Shown here piece by piece: positions 1,758-19,169 of a stretch of 64,000 nt of DNA. The position numbers and the translations under genes were made by a program. Below the pieces are notes generated by a model, which made no database searches, was not told the origin of the DNA, and was given only the letters and a program-made list of their open reading frames with translations. The stretch comes from Anaerolineae bacterium (lineage in GTDB: Bacteria; Chloroflexota; Anaerolineae; Aggregatilineales; JAFGMM01). The stretch's first letter is position 1. Every line of letters begins with the position of its first letter. The stretch is from assembly GCA_027494055.1 (NCBI GenBank), contig JAOSJO010000001.1:973005-1037004 (forward strand). Reading direction: 5' to 3'.

Positions 1758-2780
1758 TCAATCGCCGGCGCGGCGGATGACGACCAGTTTGTCAGCGCCC
1801 GACTCGGCCCCCCAGACCTCGCCCGGACGTCCCAGTATCTGGCGCACGTTGCCCGACGGGCTGGGCAGCGCGAAGACCGTGAACGCCTCCGTGGCCGGGT
1901 CGAAGCTGACGAGCGCGTTTGCGCCGAAGTCGCTGAGCCAGACAAGGTCATTCTCGTCCACGTAGACCGCGTAGGGGCGCGGATCCGCGCCGGGCAGCCG
2001 CCAGGTCTGCCAGGCATCGGCAGCGGGATCGTACACCGAGACGTTGCCGCTCGACCATTCGCTGACCCAGATGCGCCCCTCCGAATCGGACCACACCCGG
2101 CGCGCGCCCTGGTTCGGGGTCGGCGGCTCCAGGACGGTGGCCTCGCCGCTTTCGATGTCGACCTGGGCGATGTGGCTTCCCGCCAGTGAGGCGTAGTAGA
2201 TCGCGCCCTCCGGTGTGGTGGCGATGCCATACGGCCCGCGCCCGCGCGGCGCGTCGAACACCGCGATTGCGCCGCTCTCAGGGTCCAGCCGCCCGTAGAT
2301 CCCGCCCTGGCCGGTGAACCAGAGCACGCCCTCACCGTCGAAGGCGGCGGTGTTGAGGTTCGCGTAGGGGGTGCCCGCCGGCAGGGGGTAGACCGTGACC
2401 TCCTCGGTGTCCGGGTCAACGCGCACAATCGCGTTCAGGCCGCTGTCCGTCACCCAGGCCGCGCCGTCCGCGCCGACGATGACGCCGTGGGGCGCGGAAC
2501 CCGCGCCGAGCGGGATGTGCCACGTCTCGCCCGTCGCCGGGTCGAGCCGGCCGAGTTCGCCGCTCCGCTGGGCGGTGTACCAGACCGTGCCATCCGGGGC
2601 GGGGGCGACATCGTGCGGGCGCGCGCCGGCCGGCACGGGGTACTCCTCCATGACCCAGTCCGCCGCCGCGTCCTGGGCCGTGACGGGAAGCGCGACGGCT
2701 ATCGCCGCGCCTCCCACAAGCGCCAATCCGATAAGCCACCTGATGAATCTGCCGCGCGTGCGTTTCCGGTTATACAACAT
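1758..2780 (-). CDS. Exported virginiamycin B lyase (Vgb)-like beta-propeller protein
   Basis: A 340-residue protein with a basic N-terminus, one hydrophobic segment (about residues 13-35) and an Ala-x-Ala-like export site, so it is probably secreted or anchored outside. The mature part is a run of propeller blades with repeated motifs such as PHDV..APDGTVWYT and G..WVTD, the pattern of the Vgb/streptogramin lyase family (PF24684/NHL-like). True Vgb linearises streptogramin B depsipeptides, but most family members have unknown substrates, so resistance is not claimed. It is the last gene of a three-gene minus-strand group with a dienelactone hydrolase and an intradiol dioxygenase, 117 bases after the hydrolase. 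Start chosen at ATG 2780, giving a complete signal peptide. Confidence 0.75.
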   Translation of the reverse strand: MLYNRKRTRGRFIRWLIGLALVGGAAIAVALPVTAQDAAADWVMEEYPVPAGARPHDVAPAPDGTVWYTAQRSGELGRLDPATGETWHIPLGAGSAPHGVIVGADGAAWVTDSGLNAIVRVDPDTEEVTVYPLPAGTPYANLNTAAFDGEGVLWFTGQGGIYGRLDPESGAIAVFDAPRGRGPYGIATTPEGAIYYASLAGSHIAQVDIESGEATVLEPPTPNQGARRVWSDSEGRIWVSEWSSGNVSVYDPAADAWQTWRLPGADPRPYAVYVDENDLVWLSDFGANALVSFDPATEAFTVFALPSPSGNVRQILGRPGEVWGAESGADKLVVIRRAGD

Positions 2781-2897
2781 CGACCCTCATCCTTTTCCAG
2801 GCTCCATATACTCCGTTCGTGCGCATCAGGCCAGCCAATGGGGCGGGTTCCAACCCCGCCCCACTCGTGAATTCACTTCGGCTCTGGCCCGTGGCGC

Positions 2898-3650
2898 CTA
2901 TCCGAGCTTGCGCCTGAAGAACGTCACCATCTGCTCAAGCGCATCCTGGGCCACTTCATCGTCGCGGAGCTGGCCGTCGGCCAGCATGAACCCGTGCGGT
3001 TCCCCGAAGTACACCTTGAGTTCGAAGTACTTGCCGGCCTCATCGAGCGCGGTGGCGTAGCGGTAGATGTCGGCGATCGGGCTGGGATCGTCCGCCGTCC
3101 CGTGGATCATGAGCATGGGCGCGTCCAGGTCGGCGACCAGGGTGGCGGGTTGCGTGTCGCCGCCGTAGGGGAAGCCATACCAGGCCACGCCCGCGCCGAA
3201 CGCCTCCAGTTGCGGGAGGAGCAGCATCGTGTAGCGCCCGCCGGCGCAGAACCCGGTCAGGCCGAGCCGCTCGGCGTCAACGTCGTCGCGCGCGCCCAGG
3301 AAGGCGATGCTGTCCTGGACAAGCTGCGTGACCGTCGCATCGGATGGGCTGCGCTCGAACGTCTGCCAGCCGACGGCCAGCACGACAAACCCCTCCGCCG
3401 CGACCGCGTCCGTCATGGTGCGATAGCCCTCTTCCAGGCCGTTGAACGAGTGGATCAGGACGATGCCGGGGTAGGGGCCGCCTTCCGCCGGCGCGGCGAG
3501 GTACGACAGATAGGCCTGCCCGCCGCTCATCACCTCGACATCGGCGCTCTCGATAGCCATGCCTTCGGCCTCCTGCGCCGAGGCCGCCAGGGGGAACAGC
3601 GTCAGGAACAGCGGAACGATCAAGAGCAGACGTGTTTTCATCATCTTCAA
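2898..3650 (-). CDS. Exported dienelactone hydrolase family protein
   Basis: An alpha/beta hydrolase of 250 residues with a clear Sec signal peptide (hydrophobic residues 6-23, ending ASAQE). The dienelactone hydrolase triad is visible: Cys135 in GFCAGG, an Asp in HGTADD (187 or 188) and His219 in GEPHGF. The classical enzyme opens dienelactone in chlorocatechol breakdown, but it is cytoplasmic; the exported form here suggests a periplasmic or extracellular lactone or ester substrate. It lies 32 bases downstream of a secreted intradiol dioxygenase on the same strand, recalling the ring-cleavage plus lactone-hydrolysis pairing of aromatic pathways. Family confident, substrate unknown. Confidence 0.85.
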   Translation of the reverse strand: MKMMKTRLLLIVPLFLTLFPLAASAQEAEGMAIESADVEVMSGGQAYLSYLAAPAEGGPYPGIVLIHSFNGLEEGYRTMTDAVAAEGFVVLAVGWQTFERSPSDATVTQLVQDSIAFLGARDDVDAERLGLTGFCAGGRYTMLLLPQLEAFGAGVAWYGFPYGGDTQPATLVADLDAPMLMIHGTADDPSPIADIYRYATALDEAGKYFELKVYFGEPHGFMLADGQLRDDEVAQDALEQMVTFFRRKLG

Positions 3651-3682
3651 CTCCCATCTTCACTTTACGAGCTTTGGCCTGA

Positions 3683-4360
3683 TTACGGACGAGAATCCCG
3701 TCCACATGCCTTTTCCGGCGCGGCGGCAGCGGCCTGTTCGTAGGCCACCACGAAATCATAGGCGGCGTGCATTTGCCCATCCGTTTCAGGCTCCAGCACG
3801 CGCACCTGATTCTCCGCCGCGTAGAAGCGGTCTTGTGTCTGCTGTGGGGAGACATCGGGGAAGTAGAGTTGCGTGGTCAGCAGTTCTTCGCCGGTGGCCG
3901 CGCCGTCGTCGGGCGCGAAGACCTTGACGTGGATGTGCGCCGGCCGCGCGCCATACGGCGCGGGCAGCACCGTCTCCAGTGCGTAGCGGCCCGCTGCGTC
4001 GGTGTACTGGTGCCCGCGCAGCGTGTAGCCTTGCAGGTCGTACACGCCGGCGGCGTCCGCCTGCCAGAAGTCCACCCGCGCGCCCGCAACCGGCTGGCAC
4101 TGCGGGTCGAGGACCACGCCGGTCAGCAGCAGCCGCACCCCCGCCATGCCGTCCTCGACGAGGCTGGCCTGCTCCGGGCTGCCGGCGAGGTAGTGAGGCC
4201 CTTCGGCGAGCGCGGTGGTCAGCGCGCCGTCGCACACGACTGTCGCCTCCGCAGCGCCGCCCTCCTGGGCGCTGGCCCCGCTGACGGTGCCCACCAGCAG
4301 GAGCGCGACAACACCTAACATGCACAACAGGTTGTACTTCCTCAGAAGGGATCCATTCAT
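3683..4360 (-). CDS. Exported intradiol ring-cleavage dioxygenase-like protein
   Basis: A 225-residue protein with an N-terminal signal segment (about 10-30, ending ASAQE) followed by the beta-sandwich core of intradiol dioxygenases (protocatechuate 3,4-dioxygenase/catechol 1,2-dioxygenase). The expected Fe(III) ligands are in place: Tyr107 (AGVYD), Tyr136 (PAPYG), His142 and His144 (AHIHV), with the conserved Arg139 between them. That favours an active enzyme over a decayed one. Exported relatives are known but poorly characterised. A ribosome site AGGTGGAGG precedes ATG 4360. It is the first gene of the minus-strand trio with the dienelactone hydrolase and the propeller protein, so it probably sets the chemistry of that group. 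Confidence 0.85.
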   Translation of the reverse strand: MNGSLLRKYNLLCMLGVVALLLVGTVSGASAQEGGAAEATVVCDGALTTALAEGPHYLAGSPEQASLVEDGMAGVRLLLTGVVLDPQCQPVAGARVDFWQADAAGVYDLQGYTLRGHQYTDAAGRYALETVLPAPYGARPAHIHVKVFAPDDGAATGEELLTTQLYFPDVSPQQTQDRFYAAENQVRVLEPETDGQMHAAYDFVVAYEQAAAAAPEKACGRDSRP

Positions 4361-4611
4361 GCCTCCACCTTAACAACAACTGTACGGACGCTATCACCGA
4401 ATATAGCAACGCCGGGCAACGCTGCCTAATCAGATCGAGAATATCTATTACTCTGATGGCGCGATTGTGAATGCTCATCTTGTCCTGCACCCTCAGCAAG
4501 GCATGCCTTGCCCCTACACCTCACCCATCTCGTACCAAGACTCGACCCTGTGGCGGAGGTGAGGGCGCTGCCGACCTTTGTGGCCTCGCCCCGCGATGCC
4601 ATGGACCTCCC

Positions 4612-4641
4612 TTGACAGCGAACGCCGATCCATCGTATAAT
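4612..4641 (+). promoter_or_regulatory. Sigma-70 promoter of the lacI-type gene
   Basis: TTGACA at 4612-4617 and TATAAT at 4636-4641, 18 bases apart: both boxes are perfect consensus, which stands out in GC-rich DNA. It directs transcription into the LacI-type gene at 4688. Confidence 0.85.
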
Positions 4642-4687: not shown

Positions 4688-5732
4688 ATGAGCACGAAGA
4701 GCCGTCCGACCCAGGCCGATGTCGCGCGCGAGGCCGGCGTATCGCAGGCGACGGTCTCCGCCGTGTTGAACAACCGCCTCGAACGCGCCATCCCCATCAC
4801 CGAGGAAACGCGAAAGCGCGTGCTGGAAGCGGTGCAGAAGCTCGGCTACCACCCGGACGCGCGCGCCCAGAGCCTGAGCCGGGGCCGGAGCGACGTGATC
4901 GGCCTGCTCATCCCCGACAACCTCAACCCCTTCTTCTGGGATTTCGCGCGCGGCGTGGAGGACGTTGCCTACGAGAACCAGTGCAGCATCATCCTCACCA
5001 GCACCGGCCTGAATGCCGAGCGCGAGGCGCACTGCCTGCGGCTGCTCAACCAGCGCCAGACCGACGGCCTGATCCTGCTGCCGATCTTCCGCGCCCAGTT
5101 GCTCGACGAGCTGCGGGCCGCCCGCGACCGTGGCCGGCCCGTGGTGCTCTATGGCACGGACATGCTCGAAGGCGTCGATGTGGTGCTGCCCGATAATTAC
5201 GCCGGCGGGCGCGCCCTGATGGCGCACCTGCTCGCCCTCGGCCACCAGCGCATCGCCTTCATCCAGGCCGTCGCCACGCCCGAACTGGGCACCGCCCGCC
5301 TGCGCGCCTACCGGCACGCGCTGGCCGAAGCCGGTCTTCCCGAAGACCCCGCGCTGATCTACACCTGCCGCCCAACCTTCGAGGACGCGCACGCGGCCAC
5401 GCTGCACCTGCTGGCGCTCCCGGACCCGCCGACGGCCCTTTTCGCCATCAACGACTACACCGCCACCGCCGCCCTGCAAGCTGTGTATCAGAAAAGGGCT
5501 GCGCGTGCCCGACGACATATCGCTCGTCGGCTATGACGACATCGAGCAGAGCCGGCACCTGTGGCCGCCGCTGACCACGGTCGCCCTGGACGGCGCGGAG
5601 TCGGGCCGGATTGTGACGCGCCTGCTCTTCGAGCGCCTGAAGCGCCCCAGCCGGCCGCCGCAGCGGATCGAAGTGCAGTGCCGGCTCGTCATCCGGAGTT
5701 CAACCGCGCCGCCCGCCGGCCGTACCAGGTGA
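4688..5732 (+). CDS. LacI family transcriptional regulator (frameshifted)
   Basis: N-terminal helix-turn-helix and hinge (residues 8-60, with VAREAGVSQATVSAVLN) followed by a periplasmic-binding-protein-like effector domain (GLLIPDNLNPFF, RQTDGLILLP, SLVGYDDIE near the end). The frame breaks at the A-run 5492-5495; removing one A restores KGLRVPDDISLVGYDD. The gene has its own strong promoter and operator-like palindromes, and sits 7 bases before a URO-D gene and ahead of a sugar ABC importer. It is therefore the likely local sugar-responsive repressor of the 4688-13813 operon. The ligand is unknown. Confidence 0.92.
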
Positions 5733-5739
5733 GTGGACC

Positions 5740-6816
5740 ATGACGCCCATGTCTGCGCGCGAGGGGGTGCTCGCGGCCCTCAACCGGCGCACGCCCGACC
5801 GCGTCCCCTTCGAGATCAGCTACGGGGCCTTCACCCCTGGCCTGATGCGCACCTTCCGCGCGCGCACCGGCTCCGACCAGGACCCGGCGGAGTACTTCAA
5901 CTTCGACGTGCGCCCGGTGCGCTATCGCCCTGTGCCCGCCGAGGGGCTGGCCGCCTACCATGCCGACCTCCCGCCGGGCACGGAACTCGACGAGTGGGGC
6001 GTGGCCCGCGCGCCGGGCGACTTCCAGCACCTGACGCGGCAGATCCACCCGTTGCAGAACGTCCAGAGCGCCGCCGAGATCGTCCGCTACCCCTTCCCCG
6101 ACTACACCCAGCCGGCGGCCTGCGCGCACCTCCCCGCCGAGACGGCGGCGCTTCACGCGCGCGGCCTCGCGGTCCTGGGAGAATTGTGGATCACGATTTT
6201 CGAGACCGCCTGGGCCATGCGCGGCATGACCGAACTCCTCACCGACTTCGTGCTGAATCCAGGCCTGGCCGCCGCCCTCCTCGACCGCATCACCGAAATC
6301 CGGCGCTGGCAGGCCCGGACCCTGGCGGCGGCGGACATCGATGTGCTGTGCCTGGGCGACGACATCGCCACGCAACGCGGCATGTTGGTGAGTCCGGCCC
6401 TGTGGCGCGACTGGCTCAAGCCGCGCCTCGCGTCGATCATCGCCGCCGCCAGGGCCGTGAAGCCCGACCTCATCATCTTCTACCACTCCGACGGCGACTG
6501 CCGGGCCGTCATTCCTGACCTGATCGAGATCGGCGTCACCGTGCTGAACCCGGTCCAGCCCGAATGCATGGACCCGGTCGCGCTCAAGAAGGCCTACGGC
6601 GACCGGCTGGCGTTCTGGGGCACCGTCGGCACCCAGACCACGATGCCCTTTGGCACGCCTGACACGATTCGCCAGGTGGTGCGCGAGCGCGTGCGCACGG
6701 TGGGCGCGGGCGGCGGGCTGCTTCTCGCGCCAACGCACATCCTGCAGCCGGATGTGCCCTGGGAGAACGTGCTGGCTTTTGTGGACGCGGTCCGCGAGGA
6801 CGGCGTCTATACCTGA
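5740..6816 (+). CDS. URO-D/MtaA-superfamily protein 1
   Basis: A 358-residue PF01208-family TIM barrel. The opening (REGVLAALNRRTPDRVPFE) and the PDLIEIGVTVLNPVQPECMD segment are diagnostic. At the position where MtaA/CmuA-type methyltransferases carry a zinc-binding His-x-Cys, this protein has His249-Ser-Asp (HSDGD); near the C-terminus a His (APTHILQP) lies nine residues before the ENV motif. It is not a haem-pathway HemE: context is sugar uptake and no other haem gene is near. It starts 7 bases after the LacI-type gene and precedes the binding-protein gene of an importer, so it belongs to the operon. Reaction unknown; a methyl- or carboxyl-group reaction on the imported substrate is only a guess. 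Confidence 0.85.
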   Translation: MTPMSAREGVLAALNRRTPDRVPFEISYGAFTPGLMRTFRARTGSDQDPAEYFNFDVRPVRYRPVPAEGLAAYHADLPPGTELDEWGVARAPGDFQHLTRQIHPLQNVQSAAEIVRYPFPDYTQPAACAHLPAETAALHARGLAVLGELWITIFETAWAMRGMTELLTDFVLNPGLAAALLDRITEIRRWQARTLAAADIDVLCLGDDIATQRGMLVSPALWRDWLKPRLASIIAAARAVKPDLIIFYHSDGDCRAVIPDLIEIGVTVLNPVQPECMDPVALKKAYGDRLAFWGTVGTQTTMPFGTPDTIRQVVRERVRTVGAGGGLLLAPTHILQPDVPWENVLAFVDAVREDGVYT

Positions 6817-8286: not shown

Positions 8287-9223
8287 ATGGAATTCTCCCT
8301 TTCGCTGCCCTCCATCCGCAGAACGCAGAGCCGCCTGCGGCGGCGGCAGATACGGCTCGGCGTCGCGCTCCTCGCCCCGGCGCTGTTCCTGATTATCCTG
8401 ATCGTGATCTACCCCACGGCGCGCTCGTTCGTCGCCAGCGTGACGGAGTGGGACGGGCTGCACCCGCCGGAGTTCAACGGGCTTGCGAACTTCGAGAAGC
8501 TCCTGTTCAAGGACGATCTCTTCGGGCTGGCGCTGGCGAACTCGCTCAAGCTCGGCCTGATCTCGGCGCTCGGCTCGGTGACCATCGGCTACATGCTCGC
8601 GGAACTGCTCTACACCACCGGCGCGACTAAGGGCGTCCTCTACCGCACGGTCTACTTCATCCCCGTGATGCTGCCGCTGGCGGTCGTGGGGGTGATGTTC
8701 AAGTTCATCTACAACCCGACCTACGGCCTGCTGAACCGCTTTCTGGAGGCCGTCGGCCTCTCCAGCCTCACGCACGCCTGGCTGGGCGAGGCGAACATCG
8801 TGCTCTACAGCATCATCGCCGTCAACATCTGGAAGACCTTCGGCCTGAACGTGGTGCTGTTCTTCGCCGGCCTGCAGACCATCCCCTACGAGTTGTACGA
8901 GGCGGCGCGCATCGACGGGGGCGTCGCGGTGGCAGGAGGTGCGCCACATCTCGTTGCCCATGCTGCGCCCGGTCCTCGAACTGGCGCTCGTGGTCTCATT
9001 GACCTTTGGGCTGAAGACCTTCGACCTGGTTTACGTGATGACGATGGGCGGGCCGGGGCGGGCCACGCTCACTGTCCCCATCTGGATATGGGAGAACTCC
9101 TTCCGTTACAACTCGTTTGGCTATGGCTCGGCTATCGCGGTGGTGTTCTTCCTCGTCGGGCTGGCGCTGGTGCTGCTCACGCGCTGGTTGGTCAGTGGGC
9201 GCGCGACGGCGCTGAATGAATAG
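8287..9223 (+). CDS. Sugar ABC importer permease, MalF/UgpA type (frameshifted)
   Basis: About 311 residues with six predicted membrane helices. The EAA loop that contacts the ATPase reads YEAARIDGASRWQE once one G is removed from the run 8917-8921; the original frame otherwise turns into nonsense after ARIDGG. The second part (RHISLPMLRP...) is the usual C-terminal half. It pairs with the MalG-type permease starting 9 bases downstream and the binding protein upstream. No ATP-binding subunit is encoded in this operon. Confidence 0.92.
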
Positions 9224-10938: not shown

Positions 10939-13813
10939 ATGACGCCGCCGGACCGCTTCCCCGCTTCGATCCCGTACATCTGGCCGGCCGGCCTGGAGCC
11001 AGCGCCGCGCAACACGTTCGTCCAGTTCCGCAAGACGTTCGCGCTCCCGACCGCGCAGCGCAGCGAGGCGCGCATCTTCGCCGATAGCCGTTACTGGCTG
11101 TGGGTCAACGGCGCTTTTGTCGGGCGCGGGCCGGCGCGCTTCGCGCCCGACGCCCCGGAATACGACCATTACCCCGTGCAGTGGCAGGCCGGCCCCAACG
11201 TGATCGCCGTGCTCGTGCACCACTGGGGCGAGCCGAACGCGCGCTACATCCCCGCGCGCGGCGGCCTGATCTTCGACGCCGGCGTTGCGGGTGTCGCCAG
11301 CGACGCCACCTGGCGCGCGCGGGTCGCGCCGGCCTGGGAGCCGCTCAGCCCCCGGATCGGCTTCCAGCTTGCCTATACCGAAATCTACGACGCCCGCCGC
11401 GATGCCGGCGACTGGCTGCACGCTGCGTACGACGACGCCGCCTGGGCGGCGGCTGAGCCAGTCGCCGACCCGCCCTGGGGGCCGCTGGCGCGGCGCGCGC
11501 TGCCGCCTTTCACGCTGGGGGCGCGCCTCCCCGCCCGACCGGCGCGCCGGGGGCGCGTCCAGTGCGGGGAGGCGGTCTATGAACTGCACCTGTGGTTGGG
11601 GTCGGCGCAGGCCCCGCCGCGCGGCTACTGGGTGCATACCGCCGTCTACGCGCCGGCAGCCACGCGCGCCACGTTCCGCGCGCTCAGCAGCGCGCGCCTG
11701 CAGGCGTGGCTGGAGGGGGCGGCGGCGCCGCTCGCCGAGCCGGCGCTGCCGCCGCCGACGCTGCGCCAGCCCCTCGCCTATACCGTCACGCTGGACCTCT
11801 CCGCCGGCTGGCAGGACGTGGCGTTTGCGGTCGCGCCCAGCCCGGACGTGGCGACGCTCACGCTCATGGTCCCGGACCGACTCGGTCTGAAGCTCGCCAG
11901 CGACCGCGACCCGGACCACGACGGCCTGTTCTACACACGGGAGTTCGTCGGCGCGCTGCCGGCTGAGGCGCCCCACCACGCCCGGCGACGGCTGGCGCGC
12001 CCACCTGCCGGCGGCCACGCGCGGCAGCGTCGCCCGCATTCTGGACGCGGAACAACTGGCCGGCGACCAGGCGTGCGGCGATTACCCGCTCACCATGCAG
12101 GCCGGCGATTGGGCGCTGCTCGCGCTGGACCGGGAGGCGCTTGGGCACGTGGAACTCGACGTGGAAGCGCCCGCCGGCGTCACGGTCGATCTTGGCTACG
12201 CCGAGCACCTGACCGACGCCGAGGGCCGCGCCGGCTTCAGCGCGGGGCGCGTGATGGCGGTCAAACAGGCGACCTTCAGCGCGGACCGGTACGTCACCGC
12301 CCAGGGGCGGCAGCAGCACACGACGTTCGATGCGCGCGGGTTCCGGTTCGTGCACGTGGTGGCGCGCGGCCCGCTGACGCTGCACCGCCTTGGCGTGCGC
12401 GACGCCACCTACCCGGCGGCGCAGGTGGGGCGCTTCGCGTGCAGCGACGACCTGCTGACGCGCATCTGGGAGGTGGGCGCGCACACCGCCCGGCTCTGCA
12501 TGGAGGACGCCTTCACCGATTGTCCCTGGCGCGAGCGCGGGCAGTGGGTCGGCGACCTGAAGATCACCTACCTGACGAACCTGGCGTCGCTGGGCGATCA
12601 CCGGGTGATGGCGCGGGGCCTGCGCCAGTTCGCGCTCAGCCAGGGCGCGGACGGGCACGTCAACGGCCTGTTCCCCATCCCCTGGCAGGGCGGGCGCATC
12701 GCGGAGTACTCCCTGATCTGGTGCATGGCCGTGCGCGATTACGTACACTACTCCGGGGACGTGGCGACCGCGCACCGTCTGTGGCCGCACGTTGCGCGCG
12801 CGCTGGCGTTCTTCGAGACGCGGCTGACGCCGGAGGGGCTGACGTACACCCGCCAGCCCTGGGCTGACCTGATCCTGTCCGGGGCGGTGGCGGCGGAGGA
12901 CACCGGCGAGGTCGGCCCCCTGATCGACTGGGTGAAGACCGAGCGCGTGGGCGCGCTCACGACCGTGAACGCCTTCTTCTACCGCGCGCTCCGTGACGCG
13001 GCGGAGATCGGGTCGCAGGTCGGCGAGGGCGAGGCCGCAGCGCGCTACGGGGCGCTGGCCGACCGGGTGGCCGACGCGATCAACCGCCTCCTGTGGGACG
13101 CAGGCCGTGGCATCTACGCGGACGCGCGCCGCGATGGGGCGCTGTCGCCGCTCGCGACCGTCCACGGCAACAGCCTGCTGCTGGCCTTTGGCGTCGCGCC
13201 GCCGGCGCGCTGGCGCGCCATGTGCGACTTCCTGCGGGCAGAGTTGGCGCACCTCTGCCGGGACGACCCCTCCATCCCGACGTTCTTCCGGCAGGTCGTC
13301 AGCCCCTACTTCATGTACTACGTGCTGCGCGGGCTGTTCGCCATCGGGCAGGGGCGCTACGCGCTCGACCAGATACGCGCGAAGTGGGGCCACATGCTCC
13401 AGACCGGGACGACGACCTTCTGGGAGAACTTCGACCCGGATACCAGCCTGTGTCACGGGTGGGCGTCCAGCCCCACCTGGTTCCTGAGCCGGGAGGTGCT
13501 CGGCGTCACGCCAGCGGCCGGCGCGGGTCCGGTGCGCGTTGCGCCGCGCACGTGCGGCCTAGCGTGGGCCAGCGGGACCATACCCACACCCGGCGGCCCG
13601 GTTACGGTGGAGTGGCGGGACCAGGGCGAGGCGCTTTCCCTGCGCGTCGCGCTCCCGGCGGGGCGGGGCGTCGCCATCGAGAGCGAGAAGCCGCTGGCCG
13701 ATGTTGCCGTCAACGGCGCGGCGATCATCACGCCCGACGGGGCGCTGCCCGATGTGGAAGTCGCGCCGGACCGCAGGCGCGCGACCTACCCGCACCCTCA
13801 CGGCCCGGCATGA
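10939..13813 (+). CDS. Alpha-L-rhamnosidase, GH78-like (frameshifted)
   Basis: About 957 residues. The N-terminal part holds jelly-roll modules (ADSRYWLWVNGAFVGRGPAR, typical of rhamnosidase N-domains). The C-terminal (alpha/alpha)6 barrel has the GH78 catalytic-site signature in FTDCPWRERGQWVGD and the TLWENFDP-like FWENFDPDTSLCHGW near the end. No signal peptide is seen, so it acts on imported rhamnosides in the cytoplasm. The frame breaks at the C-run 11971-11974; deleting one C joins EAPTTPGDGWRAHL in frame. It is the last gene of the LacI-type operon and points to rhamnose-containing oligosaccharides as the imported substrate. Confidence 0.9.
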
Positions 13814-14114
13814 GCGCCTGATCGTCGCGGAGCGCGCGACAGAGTCTGGGAAGCGGCGGGCGGTTGAAACACGAGGCCACGACAGGCGCGGGAGATTCCC
13901 AACCCCTTTTGTAACTCGGTGTCCTTCGTGCTTCCGTGCGACGAATCCTGGCGTGCGTTTCCCTGACTATTGCCGGCCTCGCCGGTCCGGCCTTGCCGGG
14001 CCGGCGGGGGTGAGGTAAAGAACCCGTGGTGCGTGGCGCGCGGATTTGCGTATACTACCATCGGCGCGTACACAGCGCCCTCACCGCGCGTTCTGCCCAA
14101 GGAGGTCAGCAACA
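13814..14114. other. Intergenic region without a gene, with a strong hairpin
   Basis: 301 bases between the GH78 gene and the next URO-D gene. No coding sequence is convincing. A stable hairpin is described separately. A TATACT box at 14051-14056 could be a -10 for the downstream gene, but no matching -35 is evident. Confidence 0.5.
13981..14005 (+). repeat. GC-rich hairpin (possible terminator without T-run)
   Basis: GCCGGTCCGGC and GCCGGGCCGGC form an 11-bp stem with a single G-T wobble around a CTT loop, 168 bases after the GH78 stop. No T-tract follows, so intrinsic termination is uncertain; it may cap the 3' end of the rhamnosidase operon message. Confidence 0.6.
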
Positions 14115-15224
14115 GTGAACGCAAAAGAGCGTGTCCATGCCGCTCTGCGGCGCGAGCCGGTTGACCGCGTGCCGATCTACATGTGGTTCCAGCCCGACAC
14201 CGCCAGGCGGCTGGGCGACCTGCTGGAGATTCCGCCGGCGCGCGTCGCGGAGGCGATGGGCAACGACGTGTGCCAGACGTGGGTGAGCAACAACCACGCC
14301 ATGGAGGGCATCGTCCACGAACACGAGGGCGAGGGCCACGTCGATGTCTGGGGCATCGAGTGGGTGAAGGTCGGCGCGTTCAACCAGGTCTGCGGCTTCC
14401 CGTTGCAGCACGCGGACGAAGACGCGATCCTGCGCTACGCGTACCCCTATGACCAGGTCGAGACGCTCATGCGCAACATGGACCCCGTCGTTGCGCTCGC
14501 CGACGAGTACTTCATCGGCTGCGACGTGTCGCCGTGCCTGTTCGAGATGGTCTGGCGGTTGCGCGGCCTGGGAGAGACGCTCCTCGACATGGCCGCGAAC
14601 CCCAGGCTCGCCGCGCACATGTTCGAGCGCGCGGCGGAATTCTGCCTGCACCTGTCGGAGATCGCCTGCGCGCGCTTCCCGCTCGACTGGCTCTGGACCG
14701 GCGACGACATCGCCAGCCAGCGCGGAATGATGATGAGTCCGGACTACTGGCGCGAGGCGATCCGCCCGCACCTCGCGCGCATCTTCGAGGTTGGCAAGGC
14801 GCACGGGCTGTGGGTGGCCTATCACTGCTGCGGCTCGCTGCGGCCCATCATCCCCGACCTGATCGAGATGGGGCTGGACGTCCTCAATCCCATCCAGGCG
14901 AACACGCCCGGCATGGACGCGCTCGAACTGAAGCGCGAGTTCGGCGCGGACCTGGCCTTCATGGGTGGGGTGGATACCCAGGGGCTTCTGCCCACCGGGA
15001 CGGTGGACGAGGTGCGGCGCGAGACGGCGCGGCTGGTCGAGGCCATGACCGCCGACGGCGGCGGCTACATCCTTGCCGCCTCGCACACCGTGCCGCCCGA
15101 AGCGCCGCTTGAGAACATCTTCGCGATGTACGCGGAGGCGGGCGTCAGCCGGGAGGCGATCTTCGACCGCGCCGCCGACATCCGCCGCGCCCTCAACGCC
15201 GGCGCGCAGGAGTCCGCGCGTTGA
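14115..15224 (+). CDS. URO-D/MtaA-superfamily protein 2
   Basis: About 369 residues of a PF01208 barrel, opening NAKERVHAALRREPVDRVPIYMW. The metal-site equivalent is His237-Cys-Cys239 (YHCCGS), i.e. the His-x-Cys of MtaA-type methyltransferases; the C-terminal position nine residues before ENI is His (AASHTVPP). GTG 14115 is chosen because AAGGAGGT (14099-14106) lies 8 bases upstream; upstream in-frame codons lack similarity to the family. It stands alone between the rhamnosidase operon and a convergent DeoR gene. Function unknown; a corrinoid- or sugar-linked methyl transfer is only a family-based possibility. Confidence 0.85.
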   Translation: MNAKERVHAALRREPVDRVPIYMWFQPDTARRLGDLLEIPPARVAEAMGNDVCQTWVSNNHAMEGIVHEHEGEGHVDVWGIEWVKVGAFNQVCGFPLQHADEDAILRYAYPYDQVETLMRNMDPVVALADEYFIGCDVSPCLFEMVWRLRGLGETLLDMAANPRLAAHMFERAAEFCLHLSEIACARFPLDWLWTGDDIASQRGMMMSPDYWREAIRPHLARIFEVGKAHGLWVAYHCCGSLRPIIPDLIEMGLDVLNPIQANTPGMDALELKREFGADLAFMGGVDTQGLLPTGTVDEVRRETARLVEAMTADGGGYILAASHTVPPEAPLENIFAMYAEAGVSREAIFDRAADIRRALNAGAQESAR

Positions 15225-18149: not shown

Positions 18150-19169
18150 ATGGCAGCGATGACGCCGCGCGCGCGGGTCAGGCAGGCGATCCGGCACGCC
18201 CCGCCGGACGCCGTGCCCTACCATTTCAGCTACACGCCGCCGGCCAGGCGGAAACTTGAGGCCTATTACAGTACGACCGATCTCGACGCCGCCCTGAACA
18301 ACCACATCGTGAAGTACAAGCCGCGCTGCGCGGACTACCTGACGCCGGTTGGCCCGAACCTCTGGCGCGATGAGTTCGGCGTGGTGTGGGACTGGGACGG
18401 CGCGACCGATATCGGCACCCCCGCCAACTGCGTGTTCGCGGCGCGCTCGCTGGCGGGGTATGCCTTCCCCGATCCGTTCCTGCCCTGCCGGTACGCAAAC
18501 CTTCCCGCCTTCATTGACGCTCACCGCGACCGCTTCCGCGTGGTGAACCTCGGCAAGTCGCTCTTCGAGCGCGCCTGGTCGATGCGCGGGATGCAGAACC
18601 TCCTGATGGACATGGTGGAAGCGCCGGCGTGGGTCGAGGCGCTGCTGGACGCGATCACCGACTTCAACCTGCACACCATCGCGGAGGTGACCTGGTATGA
18701 TATCGACGCGGTGATGTTCGGCGACGACTGGGCGGGGCAGCGCGGCCTCCTGTTCAGCCCGGCGATGTGGCGGCGCTACATCAAGCCGCGCATCGCCGCG
18801 ATGTACGGCGCGGTCAAGCAGGCCGGCAAGGCGGTGTTCATCCATTGCTGCGGCAAGGTACAGGAACTGTTCCCTGAGCTGGTCCAGCTCGGCGTCGATG
18901 TGTTCAATCCCTTTCAGCCAGAGGTAATGGACCTCGCCGCGATCAAGCGCCAATTCGGCGACCAACTGGCGTTCTATGGGGGCATGAGCGTGCAGCAGGT
19001 TCTCCCGTTTGGCGCCGAACAGACCGTGCGCGCCGAAGCGCGCCGCCTGATGGACGTGATCGGTCAGGGCGGCGGGTACATCATCGCCCCATCGCATGAC
19101 ATGCCTGGCGACATCCCGATTGAGAACATGGTCGCCTTCATCGAGACCGTGCGGAGCGGGACCGCCTGA
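18150..19169 (+). CDS. URO-D/MtaA-superfamily protein 3
   Basis: 339 residues, PF01208 barrel. The start (TPRARVRQAIRHAPPDAVPYHFSY) and PELVQLGVDVFNPFQPEVMD are diagnostic. Putative metal motif His232-Cys-Cys234 (IHCCGK), and His nine residues before the ENM motif (APSHDMPGD). It follows the kinase by 49 bases on the same strand and precedes a small cupin, so it probably belongs to the aldolase-kinase transcription unit. The FGDDWAGQRGLLFSP segment corresponds to the conserved active-site loop of this family. Exact reaction unknown. Confidence 0.85.
   Translation: MAAMTPRARVRQAIRHAPPDAVPYHFSYTPPARRKLEAYYSTTDLDAALNNHIVKYKPRCADYLTPVGPNLWRDEFGVVWDWDGATDIGTPANCVFAARSLAGYAFPDPFLPCRYANLPAFIDAHRDRFRVVNLGKSLFERAWSMRGMQNLLMDMVEAPAWVEALLDAITDFNLHTIAEVTWYDIDAVMFGDDWAGQRGLLFSPAMWRRYIKPRIAAMYGAVKQAGKAVFIHCCGKVQELFPELVQLGVDVFNPFQPEVMDLAAIKRQFGDQLAFYGGMSVQQVLPFGAEQTVRAEARRLMDVIGQGGGYIIAPSHDMPGDIPIENMVAFIETVRSGTA

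Follow-up and report, generated by a model that had tools for sequence, protein, structure and literature searches.

Three neighbouring genes for an exported dioxygenase, hydrolase and beta-propeller in an Anaerolineae bacterium

Three adjacent genes of an Anaerolineae bacterium (assembly GCA_027494055.1, contig JAOSJO010000001.1) encode, in order of reading, an intradiol ring-cleavage dioxygenase (P0001), an alpha/beta hydrolase of the dienelactone hydrolase (DLH) family (P0002), and a seven-bladed beta-propeller with the fold of the streptogramin B lyase Vgb (P0003). They lie on the minus strand, co-directionally, and span 4360-1758 of a 64,000-nucleotide stretch of DNA (contig positions 973,005 to 1,037,004), which is called the window below. 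All three proteins carry export signals, and the dioxygenase and the hydrolase keep their active-site residues. The trio as a whole is found only here, and pairs of its members recur: hydrolase genes adjoin related propellers elsewhere, and in one genome a dioxygenase and a propeller are fused into a single protein.

The preferred reading, which is close to an even chance though below it, is that the trio works outside the cytoplasm as a set of enzymes on catecholic or ester compounds, and that the propeller is its recurrent partner. The function in this reading is one that we infer.

Aromatic ring cleavage is normally intracellular. If the exported dioxygenase is truly coupled to the hydrolase and propeller, it would follow that in some environmental bacteria catechol-type rings are cleaved extracellularly. 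In addition, this highly conserved exported propeller family is set apart from its namesake streptogramin lyases, and could be over-counted as antibiotic resistance.

An earlier model-made reading of the sequence alone had called these genes an operon of exported enzymes that take consecutive steps of a catechol pathway. What remains of that interpretation is that three exported families adjoin, with intact dioxygenase and hydrolase active-site residues, and that parts of the association are seen again elsewhere; the trio is unique, and the pathway and lyase readings fail.

The three exported proteins

Each of the three products begins with a charged n-region, followed by a hydrophobic core and a cleavage site of the AxA-Q type. 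The signal peptide covers roughly residues 1-31 of P0001 (4360-4268) and 1-35 of P0003 (2780-2676), and reaches to about Ala25 (3576) in P0002. P0002 is read here from a TTG, but translation more likely begins at an ATG, at codon 3 or 4. Export was assessed with simple hydropathy, regular expressions and cleavage motifs, and not with SignalP or another trained predictor. By this measure a strong hydrophobic N-terminus is present in 21 of 21 hydrolase orthologues, and a lipobox or strong hydrophobic segment in 61 of 64 propeller orthologues. Among the three that lack both is the fusion protein of genome G198, discussed below, where the signal is found further upstream, ahead of the dioxygenase domain. 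Given that the signals are kept across orthologues, misprediction is unlikely, and the signal peptides that had been read on all three proteins are borne out by these motifs and their conservation.

The dioxygenase gene (3683-4360, minus strand) encodes 225 amino acids. The protein matches Pfam Dioxygenase_C (PF00775) with an E-value of 1.3e-22 and 80.6 bits (cut-off 27.3). The Fe ligands named by the sequence-only reading, Tyr107, Tyr136, His142 and His144, are all present. Together with the active-site Arg139 they are invariant in an alignment of 11 sequences that includes the dioxygenase domain of the G198 fusion. P0001 is a member of the intradiol ring-cleavage dioxygenase family with a full Fe(III) ligand set, and ring cleavage is its predicted activity. 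No other PF00775 protein was found in its genome.

The nearest dioxygenases are only ~45-54% identical to P0001, and several of its closest named relatives come from metagenome-assembled genomes of Anaerolineae or Chloroflexota. Its closest solved relative is 4ilv/4ilt (E 1e-30). A Pfam scan of the protein finds neither the N-terminal dioxygenase domain of cytosolic catechol 1,2-dioxygenases nor a carbohydrate- or lignin-binding domain, and its NCBIfam catechol dioxygenase scores are far under the cut-off.

The hydrolase gene (2898-3650, minus strand) encodes 250 amino acids, and its product matches Pfam DLH (PF01738; E 1.3e-28, 100.5 bits, cut-off 21). The expected Cys-Asp-His triad is there as Cys135, Asp187 and His219, and it is conserved. 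The modelled alpha/beta fold best matches 3f67, at 27% identity.

In classical dienelactone hydrolase, Glu36, which follows the first strand, is the residue that activates the nucleophile Cys or the substrate. In P0002 and its orthologues this position is occupied by Ser68. The Glu is kept at the equivalent position in 3f67 (QEIFG) and in three HENRG-type hydrolases that neighbour propellers elsewhere. P0002 as a classical dienelactone hydrolase was rejected on this replacement; from its sequence it is likelier to be a general ester or lactone hydrolase. DLH family members active on polyethylene terephthalate are reported in PMC13188925.

Orthologues of P0002, at 59-77% identity, are present in about 40 of the 151 genomes of the order. 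A sample of 346 genomes from the class has them in only 5, all of the same order, so this type of hydrolase is confined to the order.

The propeller gene (1758-2780, minus strand) encodes 340 amino acids, with a match to Pfam Vgb_lyase at E 1.9e-36 and 125.8 bits (cut-off 50). The AlphaFold model has seven blades of four strands over residues 42-337, with a core pLDDT of about 98. Its best structural matches are the Vgb lyases 2qc5, 2z2n and 2z2o, with TM scores of 0.91-0.93, a root-mean-square deviation (rmsd) of 1.8 and 19-21% identity.

The Pfam and structural matches would fit a streptogramin B lyase conferring antibiotic resistance, with the other two genes detoxifying other aromatic antibiotics. 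This is extremely unlikely. P0003 scores 81.5 and 71.8 bits against NCBIfam VgbA and VgbB, where the cut-off is 600. The catalytic residues of Vgb are His228, Glu268, His270 and Glu284. In PDB entry 2z2p the Vgb H270A mutant is described as inactive.

With Vgb numbering taken from the 2z2n alignment, the linear blade register places Tyr270 of P0003 at His228 and Arg313 at His270. A shifted register gives Arg227 and Tyr270 for these two positions. The sole register with two His (His56 and His98) has Ala96, as read from the sequence, in place of Glu268. This means that no blade register of P0003 keeps the set His228, Glu268, His270 and Glu284, and therefore streptogramin B cleavage is not expected. 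The lyase assignment was rejected on these absent residues, alongside the low NCBIfam scores. Going by sequence and model, P0003 has a Vgb-like fold yet is not a streptogramin lyase; of the earlier description as a Vgb-like, lyase-like propeller, the seven-bladed fold stands and the catalytic set is missing.

What P0003 has is a conserved pore ring of its own, made up of His56, His98, Asn143, Tyr184, Arg227, Tyr270 and Arg313. Among 57 orthologues, which average 70% identity to P0003, there are 91 positions conserved at 95% or more. These include His56, His98, Asp112, Asn143, Gln158, Tyr184, Arg227, Arg228, Glu241, Tyr270, Gln314 and Glu321.

The family is patchy, with 57-78% identity across the phylum, and many of its members are lipoproteins with Pro/Thr linkers. 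Homologues at 53-65% identity are also carried by plasmids of Burkholderiales (L228-L231; Cupriavidus, Paraburkholderia and Polaromonas), those on megaplasmids at 62-65%. These plasmid copies are annotated merely as 'lyase' or hypothetical, or are not annotated; the one from Polaromonas is broken up into two frames.

Arrangement of the genes, in the window and elsewhere

The dioxygenase and hydrolase genes are separated by 32 bp without a terminator, and these two are probably cotranscribed. The gap between hydrolase and propeller is 117 bp and contains a GC-rich hairpin on the minus strand (2839-2863) with a perfect 9-bp stem and a 7-nt loop. The hairpin has no U-run, its stem has no second copy in the window even when 2 mismatches are allowed, and the 117-bp gap folds far better than shuffled versions of it (z -4.3). 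A search for terminator-like sites on the strand of the trio found none. The hairpin may be a terminator or an attenuator. The propeller gene may or may not be on the shared transcript. Of the proposed three-gene operon, the adjacency, the common direction and the short first gap are sound; given the hairpin in the second gap, the operon is only partly secure.

Conservation of the arrangement was assessed on loci read with their flanks. These comprise about 50 dioxygenase loci (47 from dioxygenase searches and 3 with stand-alone relatives of the G198 domain), 20 loci of hydrolase orthologues, and 68 propeller loci including the window. Apart from the window, the full trio is absent from all of these loci, ~50 for the dioxygenase, 20 for the hydrolase and 67 for the propeller. 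On this result the idea of a conserved three-gene operon was rejected: synteny of the three exported families was looked for, and the trio is unique to this contig, an outcome that the sequence-only reading had itself named as a refutation. The three genes also differ in their histories: the hydrolase is bound to the order, the propeller is spread patchily through the phylum, and the dioxygenase has only distant nearest relatives.

Pairs are another matter. In 8 loci, from several families of the phylum, the gene directly beside the propeller codes for a DLH or a related alpha/beta hydrolase. These are the window, G050 (L127, divergent), G341 (L161), G170 (L164, divergent), G638 (L196, the two open frames 4 bp apart), G794 (L194), and G035 and G065 (L137 and L138, one genus). 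Of the 124 gene slots that adjoin a propeller, 8 are taken by exported hydrolases; among 407 genes lying further away there is 1 (Fisher p 5e-5). The p-value is 8e-4 once the discovery locus and one same-genus duplicate are set aside.

The profile used in this search was built partly from the adjacent hydrolases themselves. The 92 immediate neighbours of propellers were therefore also scanned independently with Pfam, which finds DLH in 6, with E-values up to 1e-5. Measured against the 421 DLH matches in the 37 propeller-bearing genomes (234 Mb), 4 adjacent cases are observed where 0.15 are expected; the background computed from the DLH matches is about 0.4% of loci.

The hydrolases at this position are of different types. 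The window and G050 have the P0002 type, G341, G170 and G638 have HENRG-type proteins with a twin-arginine (Tat) or lipoprotein signal, and G035, G065 and G794 have a Ser type. Because different types share the position next to the propeller, it was apparently filled more than once. The association of propeller and hydrolase is statistically supported yet moderate, at about one locus in ten.

The G794 locus has a hydrolase on each side of the propeller: an intact lipoprotein alpha/beta hydrolase before it and, directly after it, an internally deleted remnant of a Tat-signal DLH (L194:6112-6522). In three genomes a related S-adenosylmethionine (SAM) methyltransferase gene adjoins the propeller (L159:5061-6056, L163:5449-6348 and L166:1288-2166).

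A dioxygenase and a propeller are fused in G198, a genome from a different order of the same class. One open frame there (L158:3884-5503, minus strand) encodes, in turn, a lipoprotein signal, a first linker, the intradiol dioxygenase domain, a second linker and the propeller. The frame begins at the end of the contig, so that the extreme N-terminus is outside view. Its dioxygenase domain keeps all four Fe ligands, and the genome has no other PF00775 match. As a natural fusion protein, it allows a direct functional test.

The G198 domain is only ~32% identical to P0001, and stand-alone dioxygenases in G195, G160 and G659 (L222, L223 and L224) are closer to it, at 50-62%. The joining of dioxygenase and propeller therefore looks separate and independent in the two cases. 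The three stand-alone genes each have one TGA within the reported match. A search across the order of G198 covered only two genomes and found no second fusion of this kind.

Another fusion has a propeller followed by a C-terminal M1-peptidase domain, in G434 and G411 of one genus (L159:6260-8881 and L163:6524-9175). Longer propeller reading frames were considered as further fusions and mostly rejected, their N-terminal extensions being lipoprotein signals and Pro/Thr linkers and not domains of a dioxygenase or hydrolase; the G198 dioxygenase fusion and the M1-peptidase fusions are the exceptions.

Partners that vary in this way, whether fused or adjacent and including the M1-peptidase domain, could also belong to a non-catalytic protein. 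The propeller, as a lipoprotein or a secreted protein, would then serve for binding or as a scaffold and would anchor varying exported enzymes to a surface or a ligand, and the many lipoprotein orthologues with linkers agree with that. Such a purely structural role is unlikely. The very strong conservation of the polar pore resembles a ligand site or active site, and an exported propeller fused to a Cu/Zn superoxide dismutase (SOD) is a weak lactonase (PMC12362111).

It is also quite possible, though well short of an even chance, that the three genes are chance neighbours: independent exported proteins without a shared function, in a genome rich in secreted enzymes. Several observations favour this and weigh against a common enzyme set. 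The trio is unique to the contig, and the hairpin separates the propeller gene from the hydrolase gene. The 21 hydrolase orthologues have no conserved neighbourhood, and both they and the dioxygenase relatives mostly stand alone. Neither partner is adjacent in about 60 of the 68 propeller loci, no dioxygenase or hydrolase gene lies beside the propeller in the four plasmid loci of Burkholderiales that were examined, and the dioxygenase-propeller link is seen at only two loci.

What chance does not readily account for is that exported hydrolases are enriched exactly at the position neighbouring the propeller, and that a dioxygenase is fused to a propeller in another order.

Possible role, and the surroundings of the genes

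If the three proteins do form an extracytoplasmic set, the dioxygenase would, with Fe(III) and O2, cleave catechol-type rings outside the cytoplasm, such as those of humic material, flavonoids or other plant phenolics. P0002, the atypical hydrolase, would hydrolyse an ester or lactone within the same class of compounds. The propeller would be the constant partner, its pore binding or converting a cyclic or ester intermediate in lactonase- or lyase-like chemistry that is not streptogramin cleavage. Alternatively, it may hold the substrate for a variable partner enzyme. The set as a whole would modify or detoxify compounds outside the cell, and would not feed the classical beta-ketoadipate pathway.

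The sequence-only reading had seen more of a pathway here. It proposed an exported catechol ortho-pathway of ring cleavage, lactone hydrolysis and a lyase-like propeller, which could work on lignin- or depsipeptide-like polymers. None of the present results points to lignin or depsipeptides in particular. The family names and the intact dioxygenase and hydrolase residues are in line with this, and even so it is very unlikely. Intradiol cleavage yields a muconate, which must first undergo cyclisation in the beta-ketoadipate pathway; only then is there a substrate for a lactone hydrolase. The statement that cleavage and lactone hydrolysis are consecutive was therefore inaccurate, since a cycloisomerase acts between them.

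No cycloisomerase gene is present in the cluster. In the genome, which is 86% complete so that absence is not proof, muconate cycloisomerase (TIGR02534) is matched only below the cut-off and muconolactone isomerase (PF02426) is not found. A full beta-ketoadipate pathway in this genome is without support on these two counts. The replacement of Glu by Ser in the hydrolase, the missing Vgb catalytic residues and the lack of a carbohydrate- or lignin-binding domain in the dioxygenase also speak against an exported ortho-pathway. With no classical downstream enzyme above the cut-off, a role in modifying or detoxifying compounds outside the cell is more probable than a complete catabolic route.

A broader proposal, rather doubtful as it stands, is that this propeller family forms the fixed centre of an extracytoplasmic system not described before. 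The propeller would have lactonase or lyase chemistry of its own, distinct from that of Vgb, and would act on aromatic or ester compounds together with exported partners that can replace one another (intradiol dioxygenase, DLH-type hydrolase, M1 peptidase). The system would be spread patchily over Chloroflexota-like bacteria and soil Proteobacteria, and would be easily misannotated as an antibiotic-resistance lyase.

Around the trio, a sigma-70-like promoter match (9/12, by consensus only) lies ahead of the dioxygenase gene at 4400-4428 on the minus strand. Divergent from that gene is a LacI-family regulator (4688-5536, plus strand), the first gene of a neighbouring sugar-uptake region. It is at most a candidate regulator of the trio. 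Before this regulator, at 4612-4641, there is a perfect TTGACA-18-TATAAT match, which is unusual in DNA of 68% GC.

Several genes of the window are frame-split or short, among them ABC transporter, sugar permease, alpha-L-rhamnosidase-like and LacI genes (13-1733, 8287-9223, 10939-13813 and 4688-5536). This suggests that the genes are truly decaying or that the assembly contains erroneous indels. Three uroporphyrinogen-decarboxylase or MtaA-CmuA-like genes, at 5740-6816, 14046-15224 and 18150-19169 (the first two checked with Pfam), sit within the region of sugar ABC-transporter, rhamnosidase and PfkB genes.

Comparison with known systems

The general idea has precedents, both in secreted intradiol enzymes and in propeller fusions. 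The specific combination of dioxygenase, hydrolase and propeller is not reported in the openly searchable literature; subscription papers were outside this search.

The solved structures nearest to P0001, 4ilv and 4ilt, are presumably those of SACTE_2871 from Streptomyces sp. SirexAA-E. Like P0001, SACTE_2871 is exported, lacks the N-terminal domain of the cytosolic catechol dioxygenases and has all Fe ligands. It differs by having a lignin/carbohydrate-binding domain, and by having no known pairing with a hydrolase or propeller. That a secreted intradiol dioxygenase is known in Streptomyces goes back to Bianchetti et al. 2013, here as cited in PMC9167512.

Spider mites secrete DOG dioxygenases that cleave caffeic and chlorogenic acid, flavonoids and procyanidins (PMC9167512). 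These (PDB 6bdj, 5vg2) are secreted intradiol enzymes like P0001, but they are fungal-derived, function as monomers, are more distant from P0001 and have no partner propeller.

Within the DLH family, the nearest solved structure is 3f67, a putative DLH of Klebsiella. It shares the fold and the Cys-Asp-His triad with P0002, which differs in being exported, in its Ser68 and in having only 27% identity.

For the propeller, Vgb itself (PDB 2z2n, 2qc5) has the same seven-bladed fold at the close structural match given above. It differs in sequence, and P0003 is exported, has a different conserved pore and is without the catalytic His/Glu set.

The weak lactonase mentioned earlier is the beta-propeller that is fused to an exported Cu/Zn-SOD in Deinococcus radiodurans (PMC12362111; PDB 9m58). 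Here too an exported redox enzyme, of immunoglobulin (Ig)-like fold, is joined to a beta-propeller in one protein. That propeller has six blades and a Ca site, reaches a TM score of only 0.50-0.58 to P0003, and has another enzyme as its partner.

In the cylindrocyclophane synthase CylK (PMC8916777), finally, a Vgb-like propeller is fused to another domain and the Vgb catalytic positions are replaced. CylK is cyanobacterial, performs alkylation chemistry and has its active site at the domain interface.

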